From contig NZ_JALKBE010000001.1 of assembly GCF_023015885.1 (NCBI RefSeq), positions 310,001-374,000 on the forward strand: a stretch of 64,000 bases of DNA, written 5' to 3'. The notes beneath the pieces are model-generated. The model was not told where the DNA came from. It ran no database searches and worked only from the letters and a program-made list of their open reading frames with translations. Made by a program: the position numbers and the translations under genes. Position 1 is the first letter of the stretch, and each line of letters opens with the position of its first letter. Of the stretch, positions 20,614-64,000 are shown in pieces. The stretch is from Aliiroseovarius sp. S1123 (GTDB taxonomy: Bacteria > Pseudomonadota > Alphaproteobacteria > Rhodobacterales > Rhodobacteraceae).

Positions 20614-20615
20614 GA

Positions 20616-21452: not shown

Positions 21453-21455
21453 GTG

Positions 21456-22070: not shown

Positions 22071-22091
22071 ATCTGGATCTTCAGGATGCAC

Positions 22092-22126
22092 GAAAAGAAA
22101 CGCGCCGAGAGGATCCCCGGCGCGTT
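22092..22126 (-). terminator. Intra-operon terminator/attenuator between choX and the lysE-like gene
   Basis: Perfect 9-base stem AACGCGCCG / CGGCGCGTT (22099-22107 and 22118-22126). On the minus strand it is followed by TTTCTTTTC. It starts 17 bases after the choX stop. Partial readthrough would give more binding protein than permease and ATPase, a common need in such operons. Confidence 0.75.
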
Positions 22127-22142
22127 CCAAATTGTGTTGGGT

Positions 22143-23075: not shown

Positions 23076-23202
23076 ATGTTCGCTCCCTGTTTTTGGTGCG
23101 GTTTTGTTGGCCGGGGCCTGCATTTGCAGACCGCTCGGCGTGACCCTAACGCAGGTAGCGCAGGGGTGGAACCGGCTTCATTGATGCAGACGGTGCTTTT
23201 TA

Positions 23203-23222
23203 TTGATTGACGAGTCAATTAA
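23203..23222. promoter_or_regulatory. BetI operator candidate in the cho/bet divergent region
   Basis: TTGATTGA, CGAG, TCAATTAA is an inverted repeat with one mismatch. It lies 37 bases upstream of the betI ATG, between the divergent choX and betI genes. The ATTGA/TCAAT halves resemble published BetI sites as I remember them. It could repress both directions and be relieved by choline. Confidence 0.65.
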
Positions 23223-23259
23223 AAAAAGCAACCCTGCCGTACGCAAATCGGAGAGGCAT

Positions 23260-23841
23260 ATGCCAAAGCTGGGGATGGAACCCATACGGAAAGGCGCACT
23301 GGTGCAGGCCACGATCGACGAGATCGGCCGCGCGGGCAGCCTTGATGTGACCGTGACGCAGATCGCCAAGCGCGCCGGAGTATCCAGCGCCTTGGCGCAT
23401 CACTATTTCGGCGGGAAGGATCAAATCTTTCTGGCCGCGATGCGTCACATCCTGTCGGTTTATGGCGCGCAGGTGCGCGCCGCCGTGTTGGGTGCAAAGA
23501 CCCCACGTGACCGGGTTGAAGCGATCATTCGCGCGAACTTTGAAGCTGGCAACTTCCGTCCCGAAGTGATCAGCGCCTGGCTTAATTTTTATGTGATGTC
23601 TCAAAGCAATGAGGGTGCGCGGCGCTTGTTGCGCGTCTATCAGCACCGGCTGCATTCGAACCTTGTCTACGATCTGCGCCCTTTGGTGGGCGAAGACGCG
23701 CACGAGGTTGCAGACACGCTCGCCTCGATGATTGACGGCCTCTATATCCGCCACGCCCTTCGCGAAGAAACCCCAAGCGGCAAACGCGCCTGTGATCGTG
23801 TTCTGGCCTGCCTTGATATCATTTTGGAGACCTACGCATGA
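23260..23841 (+). CDS. betI: Choline-responsive TetR-family repressor BetI
   Basis: Repressor of 193 residues. It begins MPKLGMEPIRKGALVQATID, nearly the BetI consensus start, followed by a TetR helix-turn-helix (VTQIAKRAGVSSALAHHYFG). The start at 23260 has GGAGAGG upstream and matches BetI length. The stop overlaps the betC start (ATGA). Expected to repress betC, betA and the cho genes until choline or betaine aldehyde is present. Confidence 0.92.
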   Translation: MPKLGMEPIRKGALVQATIDEIGRAGSLDVTVTQIAKRAGVSSALAHHYFGGKDQIFLAAMRHILSVYGAQVRAAVLGAKTPRDRVEAIIRANFEAGNFRPEVISAWLNFYVMSQSNEGARRLLRVYQHRLHSNLVYDLRPLVGEDAHEVADTLASMIDGLYIRHALREETPSGKRACDRVLACLDIILETYA

Positions 23842-25346
23842 CCTCGCCGAATATCCTGATTATTATGGTGGATCAGCTGAACGGGACGCTGTTCCCGGAT
23901 GGGCCAGCGGACTGGCTGCATGCTCCTAATCTGAAAAAACTGGCCGAAAGTTCGGTCCGGTTTAAGAACGCCTATACCGCTAGCCCGCTCTGCGCGCCGG
24001 GCCGGGCCAGCTTCATGTCGGGCCTGCTGCCGCGCCGGACCAAGGTCTATGACAACGCGGCCGAGTTCGCCTCGGACATCCCGACTTATGCGCACCACCT
24101 GCGCCGGGCCGGTTATCAGACCGCGCTGTCGGGCAAGATGCACTTCGTTGGCCCTGACCAGATGCACGGGTTTGAGGAACGCCTGACCACCGATATCTAC
24201 CCCGCCGATTTCGGCTGGACGCCGGATTATCGCAAGCCCGGCGAGCGGATCGACTGGTGGTATCACAATATGGGGTCTGTCACGGGGGCAGGGGTCGCTG
24301 AGATCTCGAACCAGATGGAGTATGATGACGAGGTTGCGTACAACGCCTGCGCCAAGCTTTACGATCTGGCGCGCGGCCACGATGACCGCCCGTGGTGCCT
24401 GACCGTTAGCTTCACCCACCCGCATGATCCTTACGTGGCGCGTCGCAAATATTGGGATCTCTACGAGGATTGCGAACACCTGCTGCCCGAGGTGCCTGCG
24501 AAAGCGTACGAGGATCACGACCCCCATGCGCAGCGGATTTTCGACGCCAATGACTGGCGCAGCTTTGACATCAAAGAAGAAGACATCCGCCGTTCGCGTC
24601 GCGCCTATTTCGCCAATATCTCCTACTTGGACGACAAGGTTGGCGAGATGTTGGACATTCTGGAAAGTACCCGCCAAGAGGCGATCATCATGTTCGTCTC
24701 GGATCATGGCGACATGCTGGGCGAGCGCGGGTTGTGGTTCAAAATGAACTTCTATGAAGGCTCGGCGCGTGTGCCTCTGATGATCTCGGCACCCGGGATG
24801 GAGCCGGGATTGGTCGAAGCACCCGTTTCGACGCTGGATGTTACCCCCACTTTGGCTGATCTGGCCGGGATTTCGCTGGACGAGGTGAAGCCGTGGGTCG
24901 ATGGCGAAAGCCTTGTGGGATTGGCAAATGGCGAAGAACGCACCAGCCCCGTGGCGATGGAATACGCGGCTGAAGCGTCCTATGCACCGCTGGTGTCTCT
25001 GCGCTATGGCAAGTGGAAGTATAACCGCTGCGCGCTGGACCCCGATCAGCTGTTTGATCTGGAGGCTGACCCGCACGAGCTGGTCAATCTGGCCGACGAT
25101 CCGGCCCATGAAGGTACGCTGAATTCGCTGCGGGCGAAGTCGGAAGCGCGCTGGGATCTTGACGCCTATGACAACGAAGTACGCGAAAGCCAAGCCCGCC
25201 GCTGGGTGGTCTATGAGGCGTTGCGCAACGGCGCGTATTTCCCGTGGGATTACCAGCCGCTGCGCAAAGCGTCCGAGCGCTACATGCGCAACCACATGAA
25301 CCTCGACAATGTGGAAGAAAACGCGCGCTTCCCCCGTGGCGAGTAA
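23838..25346 (+). CDS. betC: Choline-O-sulfatase
   Basis: Type I sulfatase of 502 residues that hydrolyses choline-O-sulfate to choline and sulfate in the cytoplasm. The formylglycine-forming motif CAPGR begins at Cys52 (SPLCAPGRASFMSG). Metal ligands occur in IIMVDQLN near the N-terminus and VSDHGDMLGE later. The C-terminal region with YFPWDYQPL is typical of BetC rather than general arylsulfatases. It sits in the betI-betC-betA unit, confirming the substrate. It needs a formylglycine-generating enzyme or equivalent encoded elsewhere. Confidence 0.93.
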   Translation: MTSPNILIIMVDQLNGTLFPDGPADWLHAPNLKKLAESSVRFKNAYTASPLCAPGRASFMSGLLPRRTKVYDNAAEFASDIPTYAHHLRRAGYQTALSGKMHFVGPDQMHGFEERLTTDIYPADFGWTPDYRKPGERIDWWYHNMGSVTGAGVAEISNQMEYDDEVAYNACAKLYDLARGHDDRPWCLTVSFTHPHDPYVARRKYWDLYEDCEHLLPEVPAKAYEDHDPHAQRIFDANDWRSFDIKEEDIRRSRRAYFANISYLDDKVGEMLDILESTRQEAIIMFVSDHGDMLGERGLWFKMNFYEGSARVPLMISAPGMEPGLVEAPVSTLDVTPTLADLAGISLDEVKPWVDGESLVGLANGEERTSPVAMEYAAEASYAPLVSLRYGKWKYNRCALDPDQLFDLEADPHELVNLADDPAHEGTLNSLRAKSEARWDLDAYDNEVRESQARRWVVYEALRNGAYFPWDYQPLRKASERYMRNHMNLDNVEENARFPRGE

Positions 25347-25368
25347 CCTCTGAACTGACGGAAAGACA

Positions 25369-27024
25369 ATGCAAGCAGAATATATCATCGTTGGCGCTGG
25401 CAGCGCGGGATGCGCAATGGCGTATCGGCTGGCGGAAGCAGGTAAGCGGGTTTTGGTGATTGAGCATGGCGGCACCGACGCCGGACCGTTCATCCAGATG
25501 CCGGCCGCGCTGAGCTATCCGATGAACATGAAGACCTATGACTGGGGCTTCCAGACCGAACCCGAGCCGCATTTGGGCAACCGTACGCTGGTCACGCCCC
25601 GCGGAAAAGTTGTCGGTGGATCTAGCTCGATCAACGGGATGGTCTATGTGCGCGGGCATGCGAAAGATTTCGACCATTGGGCCGAGCAGGGCGCCGATGG
25701 CTGGTCCTATGCCGACGTTTTGCCGTACTTCAAGCGGCAGGAAAGCTGGCATGAAAGCGGACATGGCGGCGATGCAGATTGGCGCGGCAAAGATGGCCCG
25801 CTCCACGTGACACGCGGACCGCGCAAGAACCCGTTGTTCCACGCCTTTGTCGAGGCCGGGAAGCAGGCCGGGTATGAAGTCACGGACGACTATAACGGCC
25901 AGAAGCAGGAAGGTTTCGGCCCGATGGAGCAGACCGTCTGGAAAGGACGGCGCTGGTCGGCAGCGAACGCCTATCTCCGCCCGGCGCTGGAACGGGAAAA
26001 CTGCGAGCTGATCCGCGCCTTCGCCCGCAAAGTGGTCATCGAAGATGGTCGTGCAGTCGGCGTCGAAGTCGAGCGTGGCGGCAAGATCGAAGTGATCCGC
26101 GCCGAGGCCGAGGTGATCATCGCGGCCAGCTCGATCAACTCGCCGAAGCTGTTGATGTTGTCGGGGATCGGTCCGGCGGCGCATCTGAAAGAACACGGGA
26201 TCGAGGTTGTCGCCGACCGTGCTGGTGTTGGGCAGAACCTGCAAGACCACCTTGAGGTCTATATGCAGTACGCCTCGAAACAGCCCATCACGCTTTATCG
26301 GTACTGGAACCTAATCTGGAAAGGTATTCTGGGCGCTCAGTGGCTGTTCACCAAGACGGGTCTGGGCGCGTCGAACCAGTTTGAAAGTGCGGCCTTCATC
26401 CGCTCGAAGGCGGGCGTTGAATATCCTGACATCCAGTACCATTTTCTGCCGATCGCCGTGCGCTATGACGGGCAGGCGGCGGCGGAAGGTCATGGGTTCC
26501 AGGCCCATACCGGCCCAATGCGTTCGCCCTCGCGCGGGGAAATCACGCTGAAATCGGCGGACCCGAAAGATGCCCCACGCATCTTCTTCAACTACATGTC
26601 GACCGAGCAGGATTGGGAAGATTTCCGCACCTGTATCCGCCTGACGCGCGAGATCTTCTCGCAACCTGCGTTCGAGCCTTTCGTGAAATTCGAGATCCAG
26701 CCGGGCAACGCGTTGCAAACCGATGACGAGATCGACAGCTTCATCCGCGAACACGCCGAAAGCGCGTATCACCCCTGTGGCACCTGCCGCATGGGACGTG
26801 CTGACGACCCGATGGCGGTTGTCGATCCGGAAATGCGCGTGATCGGCGTCGAGGGCCTGCGGGTTGCTGACAGCTCGACTTTCCCGCGCATCACCAATGG
26901 CAACCTGAACGGGCCGTCGATCATGGTGGGCGAAAAGGCGTCTGACCATATTTTGGGTCGCCGTCTTCCATCGGCGAATGACGAACCGTGGGTCCACCCG
27001 GACTGGCAAAATTCGCAGCGATAA
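25369..27024 (+). CDS. betA: Choline dehydrogenase
   Basis: GMC-family flavoprotein of 551 residues oxidising choline to betaine aldehyde (and possibly on to betaine) at the membrane. An FAD dinucleotide fold [21 protein letters not shown] opens the protein. The GMC signatures [19 protein letters not shown] and [16 protein letters not shown] follow, and the active-site His is in [10 protein letters not shown] (about residue 468). It lies 22 bases after betC. betB (betaine aldehyde dehydrogenase), usually adjacent, is not found downstream. Confidence 0.93.
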
Positions 27025-51614: not shown

Positions 51615-52799
51615 TCAGGCGACTTCGAACAAAGCTGCGGCCCCCATACCTCCGCCAATGCACATGGACGTAACCACGTACTTTACACCACGGCGCCTAC
51701 CTTCAAGCAAAGCATGCCCGACTTGTCTCGCGCCCGTCATACCATAGGGGTGGCCAATCGAAATGGCACCGCCATTCACGTTGTAGACTTCCGGATCAAT
51801 ACCAAGATGATCGCGGCAATACAGAACCTGGCAGGCGAAGGCTTCGTTAAGCTCCCAAAGGCCGATGTCTTCGATGCGAAGACCTGCATTCTTCAGCAGC
51901 TTTGGAATGGCATAGATCGGGCCGACACCCATCTCTTCCGGTGCGTTTCCTGCAACTGCCATACCGCGATAAATGCCGAGCGGTGTGAGCCCCTGTTGCT
52001 CAGCCAATTTGCCTTCCATGAGAACGCAAGCGGAAGCGCCATCTGAGAGCTGGCTTGCGTTTCCTGCGGTAATCACGCCTCCTTCGACAACCGGGTTCAG
52101 CCCGCCCAGTGCTTCGGTCGTCGTACTCGGTCGATTGCCTTCGTCTTTTGACAAGGTCACCTCTTCCAGGGTTTCCTCTCCGGTTTCGCGGTTCTTGACC
52201 CGCTTTATCGCAGTGATCGGAACGATCTCGTCATCAAAGGCGCCAGCGGCCTGAGCCCGAGCCGTCCGACCTTGGGAAAGTGCAGCGTATTCATCCTGCA
52301 CCTCGCGGCTGATCCCATAGGTCCGCGCCACATTTTCCGCGGTCATCAGCATCGGCATATAGGCATGCTCTGATTGGGCGATAACGTTTGGATCTTTCTC
52401 ATCGCCCGCCCATTTCAGATAAGCATTCTGCAGGGCGGAAATATTTTCCTGCCCGCCCGCCACGGCAACGTTCTGACCATCCACAATGACCTGCTTTGCA
52501 GCTGTCGCAATGGCCATCAACCCGGAGGAACATTGCCTGTCGATCGTCTGTCCTGCCACCGTATTGGGAAGGCCCGCCGCCAGCGCCGATAAACGGGCGA
52601 CATTCATGCCTGCTGTCCCCGCCGTAAGGACCGATCCGATGACGACATCTTCGATCGTACCGGGGTCCACGCCTGCACGTTCAACCGCGTGCTGAATGGC
52701 GTGCCCCATCATGGTAGGGGATTTGATGTTGTTCAGCGCACCTTTGAAGGCAACCCCAATAGGGGTTCGTGCGGTTGAGACGATAACGGCTTCTCTCAT
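51615..52799 (-). CDS. Acetyl-CoA acyltransferase (thiolase)
   Basis: Thiolase of 394 residues. The acyl-acceptor cysteine is Cys90 in DRQCSSGLMA. NGGAISIGHPYGMTGARQ gives the catalytic His, and CIGGGMGAA the second Cys. Degradative FadA-type by operon context: it is the last gene of the unit acyl-CoA synthetase, cupin, FadB, thiolase, overlapping fadB by four bases. It would cleave the 3-ketoacyl-CoA made by FadB. Chain-length specificity unknown. Confidence 0.92.
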   Translation of the reverse strand: MREAVIVSTARTPIGVAFKGALNNIKSPTMMGHAIQHAVERAGVDPGTIEDVVIGSVLTAGTAGMNVARLSALAAGLPNTVAGQTIDRQCSSGLMAIATAAKQVIVDGQNVAVAGGQENISALQNAYLKWAGDEKDPNVIAQSEHAYMPMLMTAENVARTYGISREVQDEYAALSQGRTARAQAAGAFDDEIVPITAIKRVKNRETGEETLEEVTLSKDEGNRPSTTTEALGGLNPVVEGGVITAGNASQLSDGASACVLMEGKLAEQQGLTPLGIYRGMAVAGNAPEEMGVGPIYAIPKLLKNAGLRIEDIGLWELNEAFACQVLYCRDHLGIDPEVYNVNGGAISIGHPYGMTGARQVGHALLEGRRRGVKYVVTSMCIGGGMGAAALFEVA

Positions 52800-54916
52800 G
52801 ATTTTTCCTTTTTGGCATCAAAATACGCGGTAAGTGTCACGCCCGAGGTTGCGAGTTCTTCCAACAAAGGCGCAGGCGTGAACCACATCTCGCCATAGGC
52901 GCCAAGCGACTGCCGATAGTGGTTCATGCGTTCCAGAATCTGGCTCAATCCAATCTCGTCGGCGTAGTGCATCGGGCCGCCGCGCCAGTTTGGAAAGCCA
53001 TAACCATTGACCCAGATCAGGTCGCAATCACCCGGGCGCGTTGCAATGCCCTCTTCAAGGATGAGAAAGCCCTCGTTGATTAAGGGATAGAGGGATCGCT
53101 CAAGGATTTCCTGATCGTCGATGTCCCGGGGCGTCACTCCATGTAAGTTTGCTAACTCGGCGCTGATTTGAACAACCTCGGGATCTTCAACTCGTGTCCG
53201 GCCGTCGTAGACATAGCTTCCTCGCCCGGTTTTCTGGCCCAGTCGGCCCAACTCAAACAGTTTGTCCTGCACAGCCTGGTAAGTCGGGTCATGTGCGATT
53301 TCACTTCGCCGTTCCTGGCGTACGCGTGCGCCCACATCGACCCCGGCCAGATCTGCCATCGCGTGAATGCCCATGGCCATGCCGAAGTTCTCAAGGACGT
53401 CATCCACCTGTTTCGGCGTCGCCCCCTCAAGAAGCAGACGAGAACCTTCGCGGAAGTATGGCTCGAGCATCCGGTTTCCAACAAAGCCGTAGCACACGCC
53501 AACCGTGACAGGGAGCTTTCGGATCTTCTTTGCGACTGTGATTGCTGTTGCAATGACATCCGGAGCGGTCTTGGCGCCGCGCACCACCTCCAGCAAGCGC
53601 ATGACATTGGCCGGGCTGAAGAAATGGAGACCAATCACATCCTCCGGACGGGATGTGACCGCGGCGATTTCATCAAGATCCAACGTCGATGTGTTTGAGG
53701 CCAGTATCGCGCCGGGTTTGGCGTGCTGGCCCAACGCTTCGAAAATCTGGCGTTTGACATTCATGCTTTCAAACGCCGCTTCAATGATCAGGTCGGCCTC
53801 TGCGAGGTCGCCGTAGCTGAGCGTCCCGGTGGCGTTGGATACGATGGCCTCTGCCCGATCGGCACTGAGCCGCCCTTTTTGAGCCGCACGCTGAAAATGC
53901 TCCCGGACCTTTTCCAGCCCCTGTTCGAGCGCGCCTTGCGTGGTTTCAAGAAGCGTGACCGGATATCCCGCCTGCAGAAAGGCGATGGCAATGCCGCGCC
54001 CCATTGTTCCGGCACCGATCACAGCGACCGATGAAATGCTACGTGGTTGGTCAGCACGGGTAACGCCGGGAACCTTGGTGCATTCACGCTCTGCAAAGAA
54101 CAGATGCCGCCCCGCGCGCGATTGAGGTGTGTCGAGCAGTTCAGCGAAACCTGCCTTCTCTTGTGCCAACCCCTCGGCCAGCGGCATTTCGCACGCGGCC
54201 TCGATGGACACCAAACATCGTTCAGGGGCGACAAGGTTTTTGGACGTGTGCGCTATCTGGTCTCGGAAACCCGTCAGATATCCCTTCGGATCAGGGTGTG
54301 TGACGGTCATATCCGCGCAACTGCGTTTCGGATCGCCCTCATGGCTGACACGGGTGGCGAAACCCAAAACATGCGCGCGAAAATCCTGGTTGTTTTCAAG
54401 CAGCGCGTCGACCAGCCCACAAGACAGGGCATATTCGCCTTTCACGGGATCACCCGAGAGGATCATTTGCGTTGCCGCTTCCAGCCCGGAAATCCGGGGT
54501 AGTCGCTGGGTGCCGCCGGCACCAGGCAGCAGCCCCAGTTTGATCTCAGGTAGGCCCATCACGGCATCCGGCGTGGCGACACGGTAATCACAGGCAAGCG
54601 CGATCTCCAGCGCACCACCCATAGCGGGACCTGCTATCGCGGCGATAATGGGTTTTTTGCTGGTTTCAATCGTTACACACAGGTTTGGCAGGTCCGGCTT
54701 GTCCCAAACTGCCCCGGTACGGAACTCGACGATGTCAGCGCCGCCGCAAAAGAGCGGCAGAGCCGAGCATAGAACGATAGCTTTGACCTGTTCATCGGCG
54801 TCCAACTCGTGGATGGCCGAGGAAAGCGCCTGCCGCATCTTCAGGCCAAGAGCGTTCACTGGCGGGGCATTCAGCTCAATGAAAGCGACACCCTCGGTGT
54901 GTTTAATGGAAATCAT
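52796..54916 (-). CDS. Bifunctional enoyl-CoA hydratase / 3-hydroxyacyl-CoA dehydrogenase
   Basis: FadB/MFE-type enzyme of 706 residues. The N-terminal crotonase domain (1-~190) has acid residues Glu104 (GGALEIALACDYR) and Glu124 (GLPEIKLGLLPGAGGTQRLP). The NAD-binding dehydrogenase domain begins at about 295 (VAVIGAGTMGRGIAIAF), with the catalytic His in GLHFFSPANVMRLLE. Start at 54916 (MISIKHTEGVAFIEL) has GAGG upstream; the longer frame overlaps the cupin gene. Eleven bases after the cupin stop. Supplies hydration and oxidation steps. Confidence 0.92.
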   Translation of the reverse strand: MISIKHTEGVAFIELNAPPVNALGLKMRQALSSAIHELDADEQVKAIVLCSALPLFCGGADIVEFRTGAVWDKPDLPNLCVTIETSKKPIIAAIAGPAMGGALEIALACDYRVATPDAVMGLPEIKLGLLPGAGGTQRLPRISGLEAATQMILSGDPVKGEYALSCGLVDALLENNQDFRAHVLGFATRVSHEGDPKRSCADMTVTHPDPKGYLTGFRDQIAHTSKNLVAPERCLVSIEAACEMPLAEGLAQEKAGFAELLDTPQSRAGRHLFFAERECTKVPGVTRADQPRSISSVAVIGAGTMGRGIAIAFLQAGYPVTLLETTQGALEQGLEKVREHFQRAAQKGRLSADRAEAIVSNATGTLSYGDLAEADLIIEAAFESMNVKRQIFEALGQHAKPGAILASNTSTLDLDEIAAVTSRPEDVIGLHFFSPANVMRLLEVVRGAKTAPDVIATAITVAKKIRKLPVTVGVCYGFVGNRMLEPYFREGSRLLLEGATPKQVDDVLENFGMAMGIHAMADLAGVDVGARVRQERRSEIAHDPTYQAVQDKLFELGRLGQKTGRGSYVYDGRTRVEDPEVVQISAELANLHGVTPRDIDDQEILERSLYPLINEGFLILEEGIATRPGDCDLIWVNGYGFPNWRGGPMHYADEIGLSQILERMNHYRQSLGAYGEMWFTPAPLLEELATSGVTLTAYFDAKKEKS

Positions 54917-54927
54917 GTTTGGAAACC

Positions 54928-55614
54928 TCAATTGGACTGCTTGGCAAGATCTTGTTCGATCTCTGCCCAATCGTCGAAGTGGATTACATTGCAGGGTGAA
55001 TTCACGTTCTCGAGCCAGACAAAGACGGAGATGAATGGCTGGTCATAGACCCGGGTGGCGTGGGGATCGCCCGCCGCGTTCCAGATAAGTGATCCAGCCG
55101 GATAATCCTGCCAGTCACGGGTGCCAAACCGCCAACCAGATTTCTCGGACAGGTTCAGGTACAGCTCTGGCGCGTCGTGGTTGTGGTCGCGATACAGCGT
55201 CCTTGGGCCCAGCATGAAAATGCCAAGGTTGAAATCGGGATGGTGATGTCCACATGCGTCTGGCCCAATCAGCAGAGTATGTAGGTTACACTTTGTGTAT
55301 CCCTCGCCCAATTCGGCACCAGGGGGATAGAATTGGGCGTTGTCTTCGCGCCAGATCAGATCATCCTTGGCCGCTTTCAGACAACGTGCGATTTCTTGCA
55401 ATTCGGGGGCGACAATCCCGGCGATGGCGTTCTTCAGAACCTCATCGTGCCGGGTTCCTTGGGGAGGTAAATCAATGAGCCGCTCGTCGGACAGGTCCAT
55501 GGCTGCCAGCTTGTCCAACGTCAGATCAACGCCGCGCGGGGCAGCTCTATGTGCCTGCAGATAGGTGACAATGGAATGAATAAGCGCCTGAATACGACGT
55601 TGCTTGTCTGTCAT
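54928..55614 (-). CDS. DMSP-lyase-like cupin (cupin-DLL superfamily)
   Basis: Protein of 228 residues; the C-terminal half is a cupin barrel. The first cupin motif reads HNHDAPELYLNL, giving His144, His146, Glu150 and Tyr152. Motif 2 contributes His185 (AAGDPHATRVYD). The HxHxAxELYxxL pattern and the H-x3-E-x-Y...H ligand set match those described for the DMSP lyase DddQ (metal-bound His, Glu, Tyr, His). Enzymes of this group eliminate dimethylsulfide from DMSP to give acrylate. The operon partners are beta-oxidation genes, so a different onium or acid substrate is possible. Its start overlaps the acyl-CoA synthetase stop by four bases. Confidence 0.75.
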   Translation of the reverse strand: MTDKQRRIQALIHSIVTYLQAHRAAPRGVDLTLDKLAAMDLSDERLIDLPPQGTRHDEVLKNAIAGIVAPELQEIARCLKAAKDDLIWREDNAQFYPPGAELGEGYTKCNLHTLLIGPDACGHHHPDFNLGIFMLGPRTLYRDHNHDAPELYLNLSEKSGWRFGTRDWQDYPAGSLIWNAAGDPHATRVYDQPFISVFVWLENVNSPCNVIHFDDWAEIEQDLAKQSN

Positions 55615-57236
55615 GATTTTAGGCCCGCGCGAGTTGAAATGTCTTGCCGCACGAGCTTCTTGTCGAGCTTGCCGACGCTGGTTTTAGGAAGGCTGGTGAC
55701 AAAGAATATACCGTCGGGAACTGCCCATTTTGAGATCTCGCCTGCGTCGACGCGCGACTGGATTTCTTCAATGACTCTCAAGCGCACAATATCCGGATCG
55801 GCATCCTTTGCGGCTTGAGCGACCAACACTGGCCGCTCGCCCCACTTCGCGTGCGGCAGCCCGATCGCGGCGACGTCCTCGATGCCACCACAAGACGATG
55901 CTATGTTTTCCAGTGCCAGTGAGGAAATCCACTCGCCGCCGGTCTTGATCACGTCCTTGAGGCGGTCAGTGATCTGCAACGACCCATTCTCGCGGATATA
56001 CCCAACATCCCCGGTATGCAGATACCCACCATCCCAAAGTTCATCTGAGGCTTGCGCGTTGTCCAGATAGCCTTGTGTCAACCAGGGAGCCCGAGCAACA
56101 ACTTCGCCGGTTGTTTCGCCATCATGTGGGACCTCCTGCATATCCGGTGTCACAACGCGAAGGTCGACAAGCGGGCCGGGAAAGCCGGTTTGCGCCTGCA
56201 CCTCTGGATCGTCGCTGGACAAATCGGCCACTGTCAAAAACGGACAGGTTTCGGACATCCCATATGCCGCATGCAAGGATATGCCTGCCGCCGCCGCCCG
56301 GTCCTGTAGAATGCGCGGCAAAGCGGCCCCGCCAATGATGACCTTCCATTGGCTTAGGTCAGTTTGCGGGCAGTTGGGATGGTCGAGCACCATTGACAGA
56401 ACCGTGGGCACGCAATGGGAAAAGGTGACGTTTTCGTCTTCAATCAATCGCAAGATTGTTTCAGGGTCATATCGACCGGGATAGACCTGACGCAGCCCCA
56501 GCATCGTTGCGGCATATGGAAATCCCCAGCCGTGGACGTGAAACAAGGGCGTCAGCGGCATGTAGACGTCGCCGCGATGAAATCCGGCGTTTCCGGGCCA
56601 CGCTCCGAAGCCGGCGATCAGGCCCAACGTGTGAAGGACCAACTGCCGATGTGAATAGCTCACCCCTTTGGGATTGCCGGTTGTCCCAGTCGTATAAAAC
56701 AGGGTTGCGGTTTGGTTTTCATCGAAGTCCGGGAAGTCAAAGCTGCCTGAGGCATCGCCTATCCACTCTTCATATCCTTCACCGTCGCCAATCGGCACAA
56801 TGATGATGTCCCGATCAAAATCCGATTTGATGTCATCAATGAGCGGCATGAAATCGCGGTGCACGATAATCAGGTCCGGCTGCCCATGGTTGATCGTATA
56901 GAGAACCTGGGCAGGAGATAGACGGACGTTGATCGTGAAAAGGGACGCGCCCATCATCGGGATCGCGAAAAAACACTCAAGATAACGGTGCGTATCCCAA
57001 TCCATGACACCGACGCGCATGCCCTCATGTATCCCGCTGGCCTTTAGAGAATTGGCAAGTTGGCGCACGCGTTTGCCCAAGTCCGCGTAACTCAGCCGCA
57101 TTTCGGTGCCGCTGACGATCTCTTGGCTGGCTGACGCAAGCTGGGATCCGGCCAGCAAGTGTTTAATCAGCAATGGATAGCCATATGCATTTGGCGAAGG
57201 TGAAAGTGGTGGCATGAAGGTGGAATCCCATAGCAT
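55611..57236 (-). CDS. Acyl-CoA synthetase (AMP-forming)
   Basis: ANL-superfamily ligase of 541 residues activating a carboxylate with ATP and CoA. AMP-binding motif YTTGTTGNPKGVSYSHRQ, then AAYGMSETCP (A5), YLHTGDVGYI (A7) and DRLKDVIKTGGEWISS (A8). The C-terminal lysine motif KTSVGKLDKK is present. AlkK/medium-chain fatty-acid ligase-like; the short-chain or onium acid specificity cannot be read. Start could be 57236 or the ATG at 57215; neither has a clear ribosome site. First gene of the catabolic unit, divergent from the LysR gene. Confidence 0.88.
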   Translation of the reverse strand: MLWDSTFMPPLSPSPNAYGYPLLIKHLLAGSQLASASQEIVSGTEMRLSYADLGKRVRQLANSLKASGIHEGMRVGVMDWDTHRYLECFFAIPMMGASLFTINVRLSPAQVLYTINHGQPDLIIVHRDFMPLIDDIKSDFDRDIIIVPIGDGEGYEEWIGDASGSFDFPDFDENQTATLFYTTGTTGNPKGVSYSHRQLVLHTLGLIAGFGAWPGNAGFHRGDVYMPLTPLFHVHGWGFPYAATMLGLRQVYPGRYDPETILRLIEDENVTFSHCVPTVLSMVLDHPNCPQTDLSQWKVIIGGAALPRILQDRAAAAGISLHAAYGMSETCPFLTVADLSSDDPEVQAQTGFPGPLVDLRVVTPDMQEVPHDGETTGEVVARAPWLTQGYLDNAQASDELWDGGYLHTGDVGYIRENGSLQITDRLKDVIKTGGEWISSLALENIASSCGGIEDVAAIGLPHAKWGERPVLVAQAAKDADPDIVRLRVIEEIQSRVDAGEISKWAVPDGIFFVTSLPKTSVGKLDKKLVRQDISTRAGLKS

Positions 57237-57277
57237 CTCTATCTGCTAATCTGACATTTCTCACCCAGTCGAAGAAT

Positions 57278-57296
57278 TGAAAGAAATTTCCTTTCA
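57278..57296. promoter_or_regulatory. Inverted repeat between the catabolic operon and its LysR gene
   Basis: TGAAAG, seven bases, CTTTCA, containing the internal palindrome GAAATTTC (57283-57290). It lies in the 216-base divergent region, about 40 bases from the acyl-CoA synthetase start. Candidate LysR binding site by position. Confidence 0.4.
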
Positions 57297-57452
57297 TCAA
57301 GAAATTCTAACCGATCATATCGCACCGCGAATTGCGTTTTACCCCCTGACAGGCTATGAAAAAGAGTATCAAAACCCTGCTGCATTCGCGCCCGTCGCCG
57401 GATAACTCTGCTTGAGGGTAAGCAGAATTGATTTCATCGAGGAGATGCAGCA

Positions 57453-58376
57453 ATGACCACTCACATGCCCACGCTGGTTTCACTGCGCGCTTTTGAGGCA
57501 GTGGCGCGTCACAAGAGTTTCCGAAAGGCTGCAGGAGAGATTTGTGTGACGCACGCGGCGGTCAGCCACCAAGTCAAAGCATTGGAAACATCAATCGGCG
57601 TTAAGCTGCTGGAACGCACAAGCCGTTCGGTCGAACTGACACCGGCTGGCGAGCAGTATTACCCGCCAGTACGCGAACACATTCAGGGAATCATCAAAGC
57701 CACACGGCGCATCCAGACACCTGAGGAACCGGACGTGTTGCTCGTTCAGTCCTACGCAAGTTTCAACACAATGTGGCTCCAACCCAGATTGGCTGAATTT
57801 CTTCAGGATAATCCGGACACACGCGTGCGCATAGTCTCTACCTTTGAAGACGGTGATTATGACATGCACCGGTTCGATGTGGGCGTGTTCAATGCACCAC
57901 CATTTGACAAACGGTTTAACTATAGCCCCTTGTTCGAAACCGATATCTACCCGGTATGTGCTCCAGAGGCCTTGAAAACCGCAAGCGGTGGAGTGCCGCT
58001 GGAAGAGCTAAGAAATTTCCTGCTGTTGAGTGTCCCAAGCACATGGAATGAGCCGGATGACTGGGACTGTTGGTTGGATGCGGCAGGCTTAGATCGCGAA
58101 ACCATGAAATTTGGCTCAATCTTCGATAACTACCCTCTTGTCCGCGAAGCCGTTTTGAACAACCACGGAATGAGCATCTCAAGGGCACCGTTTTGCACGC
58201 GTGATCTTGAAAGGGGGCGCTTGGTCAGACCGTTCGACATTTCGGTGCCAGAGCCAGGCCGCTGGTATCTGGCGACGCAAAAAGAACGTGCACCCAACCC
58301 AAAGCTCGATACGTTTGTGGACTGGCTGTACGAACAGATCGAGGCCGACCCAGCCATGCGGTTCTTCCGGGCCTGA
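57453..58376 (+). CDS. LysR-family regulator (GcvA-like)
   Basis: Regulator of 307 residues. Winged helix 5-65 with HKSFRKAAGEICVTHAAVSHQVKALE is the GcvA/AmpR-type signature; an effector-binding domain follows. Divergent from the acyl-CoA synthetase-cupin-fadB-thiolase unit and convergent to the second betaine-type transporter operon, so it probably controls the former and perhaps the latter. GAGGAG lies upstream of the ATG. Confidence 0.9.
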   Translation: MTTHMPTLVSLRAFEAVARHKSFRKAAGEICVTHAAVSHQVKALETSIGVKLLERTSRSVELTPAGEQYYPPVREHIQGIIKATRRIQTPEEPDVLLVQSYASFNTMWLQPRLAEFLQDNPDTRVRIVSTFEDGDYDMHRFDVGVFNAPPFDKRFNYSPLFETDIYPVCAPEALKTASGGVPLEELRNFLLLSVPSTWNEPDDWDCWLDAAGLDRETMKFGSIFDNYPLVREAVLNNHGMSISRAPFCTRDLERGRLVRPFDISVPEPGRWYLATQKERAPNPKLDTFVDWLYEQIEADPAMRFFRA

Positions 58377-58409
58377 TCTGTTGACTTACAGCTCTGCCGT
58401 CAGCGCGCG

Positions 58410-59468
58410 TCAGGACTGACGCGCACCTGCTTCGGAGGCAACACGAGGGACGAGAGCGCGAACCAGTTCAGTCATATCCAGTGAGCCGACCGTCTCTTCC
58501 CCATCCTTGACGATATAGGCGTGTGACGTATCGCCGCCAGACCGCGCGATCATGCTTTCGAGCGTGTCGTTCACGTCCACTTCGCCATGCGCATCTTTTG
58601 GCACTTTGCCGCCTACAAGCGGGGTCATAATCGAGCGCACCCGCAGAACCCGTGCGCGGTTGATGTCGCTCACGAAGTCTTCGATGTAGGGATCGTTAGG
58701 GTTCAACAGAATATGCTGCGGCTCGCCCTGTTGTACAACAAAACCATCCTTCAAGATCACAAGGTGATCGGCCAGCTTCAGCGCCTCATCAAGATCGTGA
58801 GTGATGAAGATGATGGTCTTGTGCAGCTCTTTTTGCAGCTCGAGAAGCAGGTCCTGCATGTCAGTCCGGATCAGCGGATCAAGGGCCGAGAAAGCCTCGT
58901 CCATCAGCATGATCGGTGTGTTTGCACTCAGTGCCCGAGCAATGCCCACACGCTGTTGCATCCCACCAGACAGCTGCGCCGGATAATGGTTCTCGAACCC
59001 GCTCAGACCCACGCGATCCAGCCATTTCGCGGCTTCCTTATCGCAATCCGCCTCAGGCTCGCCACGCACCGACAAGGGCATGCCTGCATTCTTCAGCACG
59101 GTCTTGTGCGGCAATAACGCGAACTTCTGGAAAACCATCGACATCTTTTCTTGACGGGCATGACGCAGCCCGTCCTCGGACAGTTGCATCACATCTTCGC
59201 CCTGCACGATGATCTCGCCCGCAGTGGGTTCGATCAACCGGTTCAGGTGGCGGATCAGCGTGGATTTACCCGAGCCTGACAGGCCCATGACCACTGTGAT
59301 TTCCCCCGCCTGCATATCGACGTTGATGTTGTTGAGACCCAACACGTGCCCGTGCTGCGCCAGCAATTCTTCTTTGCCCATGCCATCCTGGACATGGTGC
59401 AACACGTCCTTGTCGCGGGCGCCAAAGATTTTATAGAGCCCGGACAGGCGGACCATTGGTTGTGTCAT
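58410..59468 (-). CDS. Glycine betaine/onium ABC importer, ATP-binding protein
   Basis: ProV/OpuAA-type ATPase of 352 residues. Walker A GLSGSGKST, signature LSGGMQQRVGIARA, Walker B MLMDEAFSALDPL (Ala in place of the usual Pro, as in E. coli ProV). A C-terminal CBS-type region (about 275-345) could sense ionic strength. A hairpin GCGCGTCA/TGACGCGC (58405-58424) spans the stop. Last gene of a SBP-permease-ATPase operon, 12 bases after the permease. Confidence 0.9.
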   Translation of the reverse strand: MTQPMVRLSGLYKIFGARDKDVLHHVQDGMGKEELLAQHGHVLGLNNINVDMQAGEITVVMGLSGSGKSTLIRHLNRLIEPTAGEIIVQGEDVMQLSEDGLRHARQEKMSMVFQKFALLPHKTVLKNAGMPLSVRGEPEADCDKEAAKWLDRVGLSGFENHYPAQLSGGMQQRVGIARALSANTPIMLMDEAFSALDPLIRTDMQDLLLELQKELHKTIIFITHDLDEALKLADHLVILKDGFVVQQGEPQHILLNPNDPYIEDFVSDINRARVLRVRSIMTPLVGGKVPKDAHGEVDVNDTLESMIARSGGDTSHAYIVKDGEETVGSLDMTELVRALVPRVASEAGARQS

Positions 59469-59480
59469 TGAACCGGCTCC

Positions 59481-60509
59481 TTAGTGTTTGACTTGGGTCT
59501 TATCGACCCGTGTGAGAGCTGCCTTGGACACGCGGTCAAGGATCACTGCCAGCAGAACAATGCCGATACCCGCAACGATGCCCACACCCAGTTCAAGGTT
59601 TCGGATACCGCGCAACACGTTCACGCCAAGGCCAGGGGCCGAAACAAGAGAGGCGATCACGACCATGGCAAGGCTCATCATGATGGTCTGGTTGATCCCG
59701 GCCATGATGTTCGGCAGCGCCAGCGGCAATTGTACTCGCATCAGTTTCTGGCGGTCATTCATGCCAAAGGCATTGGCCGCTTCGATCACGTCCTGATCTA
59801 CAAGGCGGATGCCAAGGTCGGTCAAACGGATCACCGGCACAATCGCGTAAAGGATGATCGCAATCCCGTACAGTTTGGATTCCGTGACCGAGAACAAGAA
59901 AATCAGAGGGATCAGGTACACGAAAGTCGGCAGGGTCTGCAGCAGGTCGAGTAACGGAACCACGCTTTTTTGCAATCGGTCGGATTTCGACATGGCAATT
60001 CCAATGGGCACACCGAAAAGCACTGATATCGTAGTACATACAAAGATGATCGACAGGGTCTGCATCGCCACATCGTAGTGGTCTACGACGGCCAGCAGCA
60101 TAATCGAGACGGCGACGAAGATCGTCACAGGGCGCGAACGCGACGCGTACCAGGAAATCGCCACCAGAAGCGGGACCATGATGAACCATGGCGTCGCTTC
60201 AAACAGCCAAAGTGCGCCATCCAACATCCAGCTCAGTGGCTGTGTAATCGGGTCCAGAACAGTTTTTAGAGCCGGTTTGGCTGCCAGAAACCCTTCTTCG
60301 ATACCGTTGGTTACATCGCGTGACTGCCATATGCGGTTGCAGCTTTCATGCAGATTATCAAACGAGGGGATTGGAATGAGGGGCCCAGAGGCCTCTTCTC
60401 CTCTTGCTTGCGCCGCAAGATCCGCCAGCGAAAGAGGCGCTTTGTCGTCTGACGTGCCGCACCAGTCGCTCAACCCCAAGGCGCTGAATATCTCGTCGTA
60501 GAAGGCCAT
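59481..60509 (-). CDS. Glycine betaine/onium ABC importer, permease
   Basis: ProW-type permease of 342 residues. The first ~90 residues form a hydrophilic extension as in E. coli ProW. About six to seven membrane helices follow, with the ATPase-contact loop MNDRQKLMRVQLPLALPNIMAGINQT. It is a paralogue of choW in this window, with a longer N-terminus. 67 bases after the binding-protein gene, across a stable hairpin. Confidence 0.9.
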   Translation of the reverse strand: MAFYDEIFSALGLSDWCGTSDDKAPLSLADLAAQARGEEASGPLIPIPSFDNLHESCNRIWQSRDVTNGIEEGFLAAKPALKTVLDPITQPLSWMLDGALWLFEATPWFIMVPLLVAISWYASRSRPVTIFVAVSIMLLAVVDHYDVAMQTLSIIFVCTTISVLFGVPIGIAMSKSDRLQKSVVPLLDLLQTLPTFVYLIPLIFLFSVTESKLYGIAIILYAIVPVIRLTDLGIRLVDQDVIEAANAFGMNDRQKLMRVQLPLALPNIMAGINQTIMMSLAMVVIASLVSAPGLGVNVLRGIRNLELGVGIVAGIGIVLLAVILDRVSKAALTRVDKTQVKH

Positions 60510-60540
60510 TAATTCTACTTCCCCATCCAGGTTAATGCGT

Positions 60541-60566
60541 CAGGGGCATCGCTGAGGATGCCCCTG
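60541..60566 (-). other. Stable intercistronic hairpin after the binding-protein gene
   Basis: CAGGGGCATC / GATGCCCCTG, ten perfect pairs with a six-base loop, 11 bases after the stop at 60577. No T-run follows on the minus strand, so it more likely protects the upstream mRNA and raises binding-protein yield than terminates. Confidence 0.55.
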
Positions 60567-60576
60567 TCCATGCAGT

Positions 60577-61548
60577 TTACTGCAGCAATGCGGAAAGTTT
60601 GTCGCGCGCAGCATCGTTAAGCCACGCCCCCCAGACATCCTTGTAGGTCGTCAGAAAGTGCACAGCACCTTCATCGTAGGAGGCGTTGTTGTCCTCGACC
60701 CATGCCAGCGTTTCGCCCATCTGTGCGTTGGTGAAGGACAGATTTGTCATCAGCTCAGAGATTTCTGCGTTTTCAGCCATGAATTCCTTGGAAAGAACTG
60801 TAACCACTTCACTGCGAGGGAAGGTGCTCATTGCTGGCGTCTCGCATTCCGCTGTGATGTTGCAGGCGTGCTTTTCAGGGTCATGGGGGCCCATATCGAC
60901 CAGGGTCATCGGGTATTTGCCCAGTACCGATGTCGGTGCCCAATAAAAACCGAACCACGGCTCTTTGTTTTCGTAGGCGGCAGCGATCGAAGCCGCAAGG
61001 GTTTCGCCTGATCCATGCACGAAGTTTTCAATGCCTGCATCAATCAACCCGCCTGCCTTCATCAGGTTGGTGCTGACATTCAGACAAGTCCATCCCTCGG
61101 GGCAATTGTGAAAGCGATTTCCGACGAGTTCGGGATTGGCTGCGATGCCTTCAATTGTTGCCAGTTCCGGATGCTCCTCCACAAGGTAGTTCGGAACAAA
61201 GAACCCTTCGACACCGCCATCTGATAGAACTTCGGTCACAGGAATGATTGCACCTGAGTCAACCAGCCCTTGGTAAGCCGGCGCGCCGTTTGTCCAGATT
61301 TCGGTCAGAATATCGGGCTCTCCGGTCTCGGATACGGATGCCAGCGCAGGGTTGCTCGAGAGCGGCATTGCGGTGACGTCGCACCCGTAGCCTTCCTCTA
61401 TCAGGAACTTCGCAACCGCTGTGACGATCTGCGCAGACCCCCAGTCGCCTTGCATGATAGATACTTCACCGCATTCGTCCGCTTGGGCCGCCGAGGCGGT
61501 AATTGCCGCAGCAAATACACACCCGAGCCCCGTTGAAATCTTGAACAT
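60577..61548 (-). CDS. Glycine betaine/carnitine/DMSP-type periplasmic binding protein
   Basis: OpuAC/ProX-type binding protein of 323 residues with a signal peptide (AAAITASAAQA-DE). MQGDWGSAQIVTAVAKFL and FGFYWAPTSVLGKYPM supply Trp and Tyr residues of the kind that cage quaternary ammonium or sulfonium groups. Several cysteines (GYGCDV, NCPEGWTC, KHACNI, AECET) suggest disulfides. ATG at 61548 has AGGAGGAAAG upstream. The ligand may be betaine, carnitine or DMSP. Next to the catabolic cluster, so its ligand is probably that cluster's substrate. Confidence 0.88.
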   Translation of the reverse strand: MFKISTGLGCVFAAAITASAAQADECGEVSIMQGDWGSAQIVTAVAKFLIEEGYGCDVTAMPLSSNPALASVSETGEPDILTEIWTNGAPAYQGLVDSGAIIPVTEVLSDGGVEGFFVPNYLVEEHPELATIEGIAANPELVGNRFHNCPEGWTCLNVSTNLMKAGGLIDAGIENFVHGSGETLAASIAAAYENKEPWFGFYWAPTSVLGKYPMTLVDMGPHDPEKHACNITAECETPAMSTFPRSEVVTVLSKEFMAENAEISELMTNLSFTNAQMGETLAWVEDNNASYDEGAVHFLTTYKDVWGAWLNDAARDKLSALLQ

Positions 61549-62008
61549 TTCTTTCCTCCTTGTCATCGGCGAAACAGGGGCAGAGAAACGCTCCAAACCA
61601 AAATTCGCCTTATTTGTAGAGATGATTTGTACCGATAGGCCCAAGAGTAAAAAACTGAAAAGAATTTTGAATCATGTACAATTGCTTACAGGTAAAATGT
61701 CACAGCTAAGCTCGTGCACAGTGACCTTCGCTCCGACGAATACGTCTTAGATGCAAATCCTTGAGTGGCATATGCAGGTGAGTTTTCGGATCTTTTTTTT
61801 AAGAGACAGAACGAGGTGTCATCACACCCAAGGGTGTCCATTCTGGACTTGTCACTTTCATTCGAGCGAACTGCAGCATTGAGTCAATGTGGGCACCCTA
61901 CGGTCATTCGCGTCTGTTGCGACGAATGTCCGATATGGACCGATAGCTTTTTAGAAACCATGCCAACGAATAATTGCAAGCCCGGAATAGCTGTTTTGCG
62001 ATGGGCCT
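61549..62008. other. 460-base intergenic region
   Basis: No credible gene. The left part must carry the promoter for the binding-protein operon (leftwards) and is AT-rich around 61640-61700. About 61850-61950 resembles the decayed repeat-like sequence also seen after proS (CATTCG..., GAATGTCCG... words). Visibly more AT-rich than the housekeeping part of the window. Confidence 0.4.
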
Positions 62009-64000
62009 TTACGACAGCCGCGTCCAAAGAGGCGTGCCGTATAGAAGCCATGGCTTGTAAAGAACCCGAGAAAGGTTCGGAAGCGAAGGCTGCTCATCTT
62101 CCGACGACACTTTTTGAACTCCCAAGCGAATGGCTGGCGTGTTCTCAATAGGTGCCCGTTTTCGGTGTTTCTCTACGGGAATCCGTATATTTTCACCGGG
62201 AACTGCGATAGAGCTCATGGTCATTTCTACTTCTTCGGTTTCGTCATGCTTGTTCCGAGATGTTACATATTGGCGAAACTCGAAAAAATTATAGTGAACC
62301 CTGAAGATGTTCAGGATCGCGATCAGAACCCTGGGATTGTAGCTGGCACCGTTCTCAAACGAGGGACCTTTTCGAGCCCCGCCGCTGCTTGCGCGATCAG
62401 TCATACTGATGCGTTCGCGAACAGCCTCCATAAAGCTCGAAGCCGGCTGCAATGTCGCCCGGACAACGCGCCTTGTAATGGCCTTGCAAAGATCAGGATC
62501 CTTGATCTGAGAGTCTATGCCCAAAGCTTTGAATTGTTCCCTGTATCGGCGCGACAGGACTGGGAATCCGACAACCTTGTCTGTCTCGCCGCCAAACTGG
62601 ACAGGACTTCGAATCCAGAGATCAGGGAAGGCACGTGTCGCAAAATTTGATATAGGAAACGGCCGAGCATCCCCGGATCGTCCAGGTTTGTAGGCAGGCT
62701 TCAGCCTGGCTTCAGTCCATGCATGCAGCGCTTCATATGGCGCAAGGTTCGGATTGGCATTCCGAAACCTTCTGAGCGATGCGTCGTATCGGTTGAACTT
62801 CGAGGTGATCTGACCCTTGGTTGCCTTCTTGTTGAAGCTCACGACAAGCCATTCAAACAAATCCTCCTTAATGTCTTCCCGGAAGATGTGCGGAACTACC
62901 CGCGCCATTGCCGCTTCTTGTTCACTGACGAGCGTTATCTTTCCGGAGGGCAACATTTCTCTCAGGCATTCGAGATGCGCCGCTTTTGTGTAGGTATCGC
63001 GCGTCATAATGCCCGAAAATGAGTTGCGCGTATCACGCTCTGACGCGGGGAAATTGAAATAGAACCTGCGAAGGAAGCTGAGCGAGAGCCGCCTTTCCTC
63101 AGCTCTGTCGAGCTCGAATTGAAGGCTCGCGTCGGGTGTCCTCTTCGCTCGCTTGAGCTTTTCATGAACCTTCTCACCGAAGAGGCGGAATTCTGACTCG
63201 GCAGCTGCGAAGAGTGCTCCTTCTTCATACCGCCCAGAGGGTCGTTGGAATTCCAAAAGGGGCGCGGTGAACGTTGTTCCATCTGCCTTGGTATAAGTCT
63301 TTCTGATCTTCACTGGCCCTTTGCGACCACCGTAGTGGTCGAGCAGATAATTGGCGGGATCAATGGTAGGATCGAAATCGACATCTATTCGGTAAATGTA
63401 GCCAGAATCGATGTCTGCACTGATCGAACAATTCAACTGTGTCAGGCGGCGGTCAGTGCGCGTCTCCCAGTTCACCGAAAGAACAATATCGTCATGGGCA
63501 ATTTTGTGATGGCGAAATTTCCCGAGGCGTTCGTGGTCCTTACGCCACTTGTCCAACTGGGCCTTTTCATAAGCAAGGAGGACTTCCTCAAGCCAAAATA
63601 TGCGATCGTAGAACCGCGACATGCCAACCTGTCGCCTGCCATCAGGGCTTCTGAAAATTCGGCGCATATCACTCATTCCTGACTCATTGACCAGGTGGTT
63701 CAGGATTTGGATGTTTTCAGTTCTTTCCTTCTGCCGGCGATGCGGTGCTGACACCGTAAACCGGGAGCCTCTTTGGCCTTTGCATGCTTTGCAAACGACA
63801 CGCATTCCGAGGGGCTTTCCACCCTTCCGGCTACCTTTTCTGGGCGTGGTCTTGCCGTTGGCACCATCGAGGGCAAACGCAGTCGGATCTTCAAGATACC
63901 GCTTTCCGCAGCTACCGCATCTTGGTCCATCCAGAACGCCGTTCATCGACCTTAGGCGATTTGTTTCCGCCACGAAGTGAGCATTGGAAAGAACCTTCTG
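62009..64000 (-). CDS. Large zinc-ribbon, insertion-element-like protein (N-terminus beyond window)
   Basis: At least 654 residues from a GTG at 63973. The frame stays open to the right edge, so the true start probably lies outside. Near the N-terminus there is a zinc ribbon with Cys pairs CGSC and CKAC (about 19/22 and 61/64), then a helix-turn-helix-like part. A central region follows with acidic residues (CSISADIDSGYIYRIDVDFD; ITLVSEQEAAMARV; NLAPYEALHAWTEARL) that looks like a degenerate or divergent DDE/RNase H-type core. The C-terminal ~150 residues are basic. InsA-like insertion-element proteins share the ribbon, but the size is far larger than IS1 proteins. Function not established. 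Confidence 0.5.
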   Translation of the reverse strand, partial: QKVLSNAHFVAETNRLRSMNGVLDGPRCGSCGKRYLEDPTAFALDGANGKTTPRKGSRKGGKPLGMRVVCKACKGQRGSRFTVSAPHRRQKERTENIQILNHLVNESGMSDMRRIFRSPDGRRQVGMSRFYDRIFWLEEVLLAYEKAQLDKWRKDHERLGKFRHHKIAHDDIVLSVNWETRTDRRLTQLNCSISADIDSGYIYRIDVDFDPTIDPANYLLDHYGGRKGPVKIRKTYTKADGTTFTAPLLEFQRPSGRYEEGALFAAAESEFRLFGEKVHEKLKRAKRTPDASLQFELDRAEERRLSLSFLRRFYFNFPASERDTRNSFSGIMTRDTYTKAAHLECLREMLPSGKITLVSEQEAAMARVVPHIFREDIKEDLFEWLVVSFNKKATKGQITSKFNRYDASLRRFRNANPNLAPYEALHAWTEARLKPAYKPGRSGDARPFPISNFATRAFPDLWIRSPVQFGGETDKVVGFPVLSRRYREQFKALGIDSQIKDPDLCKAITRRVVRATLQPASSFMEAVRERISMTDRASSGGARKGPSFENGASYNPRVLIAILNIFRVHYNFFEFRQYVTSRNKHDETEEVEMTMSSIAVPGENIRIPVEKHRKRAPIENTPAIRLGVQKVSSEDEQPSLPNLSRVLYKPWLLYGTPLWTRLS

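Follow-up and report, generated by a model that had tools for sequence, protein, structure and literature searches.

A probably horizontally spread gene island combining a DddQ-type cupin, a beta-oxidation module and a DmpX-family importer, with a possible role in the catabolism of an onium carboxylate other than DMSP

The window analysed here, a stretch of 64,000 nucleotides from Aliiroseovarius sp. S1123, contains a cluster of eight genes coding for a thiolase, a fused FadB, a cupin, an acyl-CoA synthetase, a LysR-type regulator and the ProV, ProW and ProX components of an ABC importer (Table 1). All eight frames are open and intact, and a Pfam search agrees with the name of each protein. 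The coordinates given in an earlier note on this DNA are right. The synthetase, cupin, FadB and thiolase genes form one tight operon. They had been described as four overlapping genes, which is true of the synthetase/cupin and FadB/thiolase pairs (4 bp each) but not of cupin and FadB, which lie 11 bp apart (the FadB ATG is at 54916; the Pfam run took FadB from 54919). The true start of the synthetase is probably an inner methionine near 57215, ∼21 bp inside the listed frame, since most aligned relatives lack the ATG upstream and conserve the inner one alone. A 654-aa frame adjoining PROX (62009-63973) has no Pfam match; it may encode a mobile-element protein, which would suit the border of an island.

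Table 1. Genes and promoter elements of the cluster (window coordinates)
Feature	Position	Strand	Evidence
THL, thiolase (acetyl-CoA C-acyltransferase)	51615..52799	-	Pfam Thiolase_N/C; NCBIfam NF005494 543 bits, under 615 cut-off
FADB, fused enoyl-CoA hydratase / 3-hydroxyacyl-CoA dehydrogenase	52796..54916	-	Pfam ECH_1, 3HCDH_N, 3HCDH
CUP, DddQ-type cupin, predicted metal-dependent beta-elimination lyase	54928..55614	-	PF16867 79.9 bits vs cut-off 27
ACS, acyl-CoA synthetase	55611..57236	-	AMP-binding; NF004837 550 bits, over 476 cut-off
42-bp conserved promoter/operator element upstream of ACS	57271..57312	-	Intergenic alignment + position-weight matrix
LYSR, divergent LysR-type regulator, GcvA-like	57453..58376	+	Pfam HTH_1, LysR_substrate; NF008352 246 bits, under 288 cut-off
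PROV, ATPase of onium ABC importer	58410..59468	-	ABC_tran; TIGR01186 330.7 bits, over 326.6 cut-off
PROW, permease of onium ABC importer	59481..60509	-	BPD_transp_1; TIGR03416 244 bits, under 363 cut-off
PROX, DmpX-family substrate-binding protein, Phe at Tyr200 place	60577..61548	-	OpuAC 166 bits vs 21.2; 7yle E 5.5e-116
Second promoter-element copy, upstream of PROX	61649..61690	-	Matrix score 14.4

The neighbourhood survey proposed in the earlier note took the form of a single cupin search across genome contigs, which returned 35 loci. The full synthetase-cupin-FadB-thiolase set is present in 22 of them and cut by a contig end in two others (L050, L066); the grouping of the four genes is not chance, and the survey does not show the rarity of the combination that, according to the earlier note, would have refuted its proposal. 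Complete sets are found in Ruegeria, Aliiroseovarius, Shimia, Leisingera, Roseovarius, Boseongicola and others, as well as in one bin labelled Cocleimonas (L060), which we take to be a gammaproteobacterium; marine isolates bearing the island include Ruegeria atlantica and Leisingera aquimarina. The cupin and the beta-oxidation module are nevertheless separable, since the cupin relatives of the 11 remaining loci stand without the full set (L047, L049, L051, L055, L056, L058, L059, L061, L062, L063 and L064); these include three contigs that stop ∼0.5 kb or less past the cupin (L059, L061, L062) and one locus that keeps a synthetase remnant (L058). In another genome (G270), PROX and a shortened PROW alone remain within the stretch read. 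Of the 394 family genomes drawn, 37 contain a match to the cupin at 1e-10; in six of the 37 the identity is at least 59%. Between the window and its 16 closest loci, which belong to several genera (L032-L046, L065), the individual genes are 89-100% identical in DNA; GC3 is 0.60-0.69 in the eight cluster genes vs 0.73-0.75 in four flanking genes. Given this identity across genera and the low GC3, the cluster is read as a horizontally spread island of recent spread.

Six of the loci without the set come from Rhodobacteraceae single-cell genomes and bins (L047, L049, L055, L061, L051, L056) and have a cupin with neither LysR, operon nor promoter element; in four of the six, the surrounding genes look like housekeeping genes. 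A tRNA was suspected by eye beside the orphan cupin in L047, L049 and L061, but ARAGORN predicted none at these three loci; it detected one tRNA-Lys ∼1.4 kb before the cupin of L055. A more distant cupin relative (L077) lies near a gene of the trimethylamine-methyltransferase family (an MttB relative) and, by eye, near polyamine-type importer-, Rieske oxygenase- and beta-hydroxyaspartate-cycle-like genes.

The operon and the importer share a 42-bp element. The position-weight matrix describing it was trained on the window and 12 relatives, in which the ACS sites are found by construction and the transporter sites are not. The copy upstream of PROX is the second-best site of the 64-kb window, the next scoring -11.6; shuffling the 300-bp PROX upstream region 2000 times never produced a score of 14 or more, and 40 shuffles of the whole window gave 2.8 at best. 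Across the 35 loci, scores above 8 fall solely before the synthetase gene (in L059, before the cupin gene) or before a transporter gene, and 21 of the 22 loci with operon and transporter both visible have the element before each of the two, the exception being L042; the contig of L057 ends short of any transporter. L060 has a single element, before PROX and the synthetase, and in L062 and L063 half of the element matches, before an SBP_bac_5 gene. The same scan of the 35 loci found no element above threshold at the orphan cupin loci or in L066, where synthetase and cupin are present. The data thus support a single unit of importer, cupin and CoA/beta-oxidation module, joined by a common promoter element. 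The position of the element suggests that it is bound by the LysR protein, and the island is probably LysR-controlled. Pattern searches of the own genome for further regulon members recovered the ACS site, the other matches not being clearly above the reversed-pattern control: one search gave four matches, three of them with one mismatch, vs none in the control, and another gave 29 vs 17.

Both sites also occur in five loci with an importer other than ProXWV. The importer of three Leisingera loci (L052-L054) is swapped for an SBP_bac_5 protein and a fatty-acid-hydroxylase-family protein, and two Roseovarius loci (L043, L046) have a transporter protein 28-29% identical to the Leisingera SBP_bac_5 protein. 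At loci lacking ProXWV (L062, L063, L052-L054, L058), SBP_bac_5 and the fatty-acid-hydroxylase-family protein (PF04116, tested in L062) are repeatedly seen close to the cupin, L058 having SBP fragments alone. As a clue to the substrate, the swap was discarded: SBP_bac_5 relatives at E 1e-100 are present in 307 of the 394 genomes, and their presence says little.

No other protein encoded in this genome matches PF16867 at E 0.001, and the cupin is over the cut-off of this family of DMSP lyases (Table 1). A profile of 23 cupin relatives searched against the PDB retrieves DMSP lyases alone below E 1e-5, with the next match at 0.078. The AlphaFold2 model of the cupin (pLDDT 89.7) gives DddQ at all of Foldseek ranks 1-6 (E 1.7e-14 to 1.8e-13; next 3.5e-8), with TM scores (target) of 0.73-0.79 for the six DddQ entries and 17-20% identity in the structural match. 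PMC4437653 lists Tyr120, His123, His125, Glu129, Tyr131 and His163 as essential in DddQ. These six residues are matched by Y141, H144, H146, E150, Y152 and H185 of the window cupin; the 23 aligned cupins share the first five without exception, and H185 is kept in all 22 that reach that site (L066 ends before it). With all six present, the site is plausibly capable of DddQ chemistry. The window cupin thus shares family, fold and essential residues with DddQ (4la2, 4la3, 5cu1, 4b29) and DddW; unlike them, it is only distantly similar in sequence and sits in an operon with a beta-oxidation module.

The binding protein of the importer is 58% identical to RnDmpX (7yle), the DMSP-binding protein of the DmpXWV importer. 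According to PMC10030565, the pocket of RnDmpX is made of W35, T64, W84, E113, W152, A153, Y200 and W202, Tyr200 bonds the sulfonium sulfur of DMSP, and binding of DMSP is lost in both Y200A and Y200F. The corresponding residues are W, S, W, E, W, T, F and W in PROX. The importer therefore belongs to the same family as DmpXWV and keeps the cage of four tryptophans with its glutamate (W35, W84, E113, W152, W202), but differs by Tyr200 to Phe, Thr64 to Ser and Ala153 to Thr and by its link to a catabolic operon. The Tyr200 change is found in the window and in all 18 loci with an SBP gene in the cluster, while the place of Thr64 varies among cluster SBPs (Ser, Thr or Gly) and that of Ala153 is Thr or Val. 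In an SBP survey, 119 of 394 family genomes matched at 1e-30. Among the best 30 SBP loci, which were fetched, the six of cluster type (the window included, and some genomes already in the 18-locus count) all have Phe at place 200 and the 24 others all have Tyr. Tyr is also found in L051, whose SBP is 33% identical and more than 6 kb from the orphan cupin. Since the residue essential for DMSP is replaced by Phe, plain DMSP is an unlikely ligand judging from the pocket sequence. A quaternary ammonium offers the Tyr hydroxyl no lone pair, so the change might indicate a nitrogen compound instead of a sulfur one. The onium-type importer announced by the earlier note is supported.

FadB and the thiolase have the domain content and catalytic motifs of beta-oxidation enzymes. 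The closest solved structure to FadB is 6ium (659 bits), with both active-site regions aligned, and the thiolase contains the catalytic Cys/His motifs DRQCSSG, NEAF, GHP and CIGGG. For the synthetase, the closest solved relative is an acyl-ACP synthetase, 8hsy (548 bits), followed by 6ihk (301 bits) and 6ijb (∼300 bits), which we take to be DmdB. Its identification as a DmdB-type 3-(methylthio)propionyl-CoA ligase was rejected, NF005426 giving 382 bits vs a cut-off of 822. No thioesterase is found by Pfam among the eight cluster proteins. The absence of an acyl-CoA dehydrogenase, which the earlier note saw as fitting an already unsaturated or hydroxylated substrate, is true of the window but not of the system. 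Of 18 four-gene loci whose sequence extends 2.8 kb or more past the thiolase, 11 carry an AraC gene and an acyl-CoA dehydrogenase gene next to it, which weakens the argument. A search of the own genome with the acyl-CoA dehydrogenase of these relatives gave nine matches, the best 33% identical.

Other genes for onium compounds are present in this genome. Contig C14 encodes a carnitine 3-dehydrogenase that scores 734 bits against a cut-off of 592 and contains a thioesterase domain; it lies near a BKACE-family enzyme, and neither of the two has a counterpart among the eight cluster proteins. The canonical carnitine route oxidises an onium 3-hydroxy acid and cleaves next to the keto group; it uses free acids and BKACE, unlike the island with its synthetase, FadB and thiolase, and here it occupies a separate locus. 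Near the carnitine dehydrogenase/BKACE genes, a short frame (L085, 1964-2308) is 57% identical to part of PROV and is apparently a PROV-like remnant. A second BKACE-family match lies on contig C18 (L086, 8576-9346); this gene need not be broken, as the single stop counted in it seems simply to terminate a 256-aa open frame. One other OpuAC protein of the genome is over the cut-off: it lies in the window, resembles ChoX by eye and is the SBP of a choline-type importer at 19594-27024, beside betI-, choline sulfatase- and choline dehydrogenase-like genes (by eye).

Taken together, these data suggest, with a probability of roughly 0.45, that the cluster is an island which has spread horizontally, is probably under LysR control and serves the catabolism of a zwitterionic onium carboxylate distinct from DMSP. 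The importer would bring the onium acid into the cell, the cupin would remove the onium group as DMS or trimethylamine by metal-assisted beta-elimination, and the synthetase, FadB and thiolase would pass the carbon chain to acetyl-CoA. The proposal of the earlier note is therefore partly supported: its observation is right and stronger than stated, since importer, complete DddQ site and CoA/beta-oxidation module make one unit, and its interpretation as an onium-acid route is right in kind in part, but carnitine fits poorly and the lyase or detoxification step that it assigns to the cupin is putative. An order that uses every enzyme can be drawn for C5 onium acids such as gonyol or delta-valerobetaine: a single beta-oxidation turn would release acetyl-CoA and leave DMSP or beta-alanine betaine, a C3 onium acid that would then be cleaved by the cupin to acrylate. 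The attraction of this substrate class, which is unlikely as it stands, is that it fits all parts, because one turn leaves a C3 onium acid with the geometry that a DddQ-type lyase cleaves. It is weakened by the step from CoA ester to free acid, which needs a thioesterase not encoded in the cluster, and by the orphan cupins that exist without the module. Against gonyol stands the observation that four strains tested, which may or may not carry the island, released no DMS from it (PMC7221440). The proposed island as a whole also has to accommodate a cupin only 17-20% identical to DddQ, the lack of an element in L066, a synthetase whose nearest solved relative is an acyl-ACP synthetase rather than an onium-acid ligase, and the Leisingera importer swap to SBP_bac_5 and a fatty-acid-hydroxylase-family protein, which does not follow from the model.

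Other arrangements of the same parts can be considered. The cupin could act first, on a beta-onium acid of C4 or more, to give an alpha,beta-unsaturated acid that the synthetase, hydratase/dehydrogenase and thiolase would convert into acetyl-CoA units, a dehydrogenase being unneeded. This scheme is unlikely, but it has points in its favour: the enzyme set suits an enoate exactly, the cupin gene shares 4 bp with the synthetase gene, and no acyl-CoA dehydrogenase is part of the window's four-gene core. However, 11 of 18 relatives have one beside the operon, and to our knowledge there is no abundant natural beta-onium acid of this length, which counts against the scheme. It is quite improbable that the operon serves the catabolism of short- or medium-chain acyl compounds, with a cupin that is not a lyase but has another or accessory role, since the cupin keeps all six DddQ-essential residues and the promoter element is common to operon and DmpX-family importer; the acyl-ACP synthetase-like synthetase, the ordinary type of FadB and thiolase and the AraC and acyl-CoA dehydrogenase genes added in many relatives would nevertheless suit such a module.

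The two remaining readings concern known onium compounds. In ordinary DMSP cleavage, which is more doubtful again despite a DddQ-type cupin and a DmpX-family importer, the cupin would produce DMS and acrylate, synthetase and FadB would handle acrylate and the thiolase would be incidental; a C3 acid, however, is no ordinary thiolase substrate, and the Tyr200 to Phe change of the window and all 18 cluster SBPs is the one that abolished DMSP binding in RnDmpX (PMC10030565). The route from carnitine, crotonobetaine or gamma-butyrobetaine to betainyl-CoA and acetyl-CoA, the main idea of the earlier note, has a chemistry that suits synthetase, FadB and thiolase, and the SBP pocket change would suit a quaternary ammonium devoid of the sulfur lone pair, as can be derived from PMC10030565. 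Yet it leaves no step for the cupin, and carnitine is disfavoured as the main substrate because carnitine 3-dehydrogenase and BKACE stand together elsewhere in the same genome; this route is the least probable of all.

The preferred reading, a catabolic island for an onium carboxylate other than DMSP, can be compared with DMS-releasing systems that involve CoA. DddX resembles it by its CoA chemistry and DMS release, and DddD cleaves DMSP in a CoA-dependent manner with release of DMS; unlike both, the island has a cupin beside a separate synthetase and thiolase. Among the open-licence PMC papers listed by literature searches, none has a title or abstract beginning that deals with this gene cluster. 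It would be a bold claim, and an improbable one, slightly more so than the C5 substrate class itself, that the cluster represents the first genes for the breakdown of onium acids two carbons longer than DMSP (gonyol, delta-valerobetaine), with a new clade of DddQ-type cupins releasing DMS or trimethylamine and a DmpX relative without DMSP specificity.

The island offers a natural experiment: among the members examined, the tyrosine essential for DMSP is changed solely in the DmpX-family copies tied to this operon, and the question of the substrate is therefore directly testable. Gonyol and similar zwitterions occur widely in phytoplankton, and marine bacteria consume them through routes called unidentified (PMC7221440). 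If the island does handle such zwitterions, its genes would mark a source or sink of DMS or methylamines that has been overlooked.
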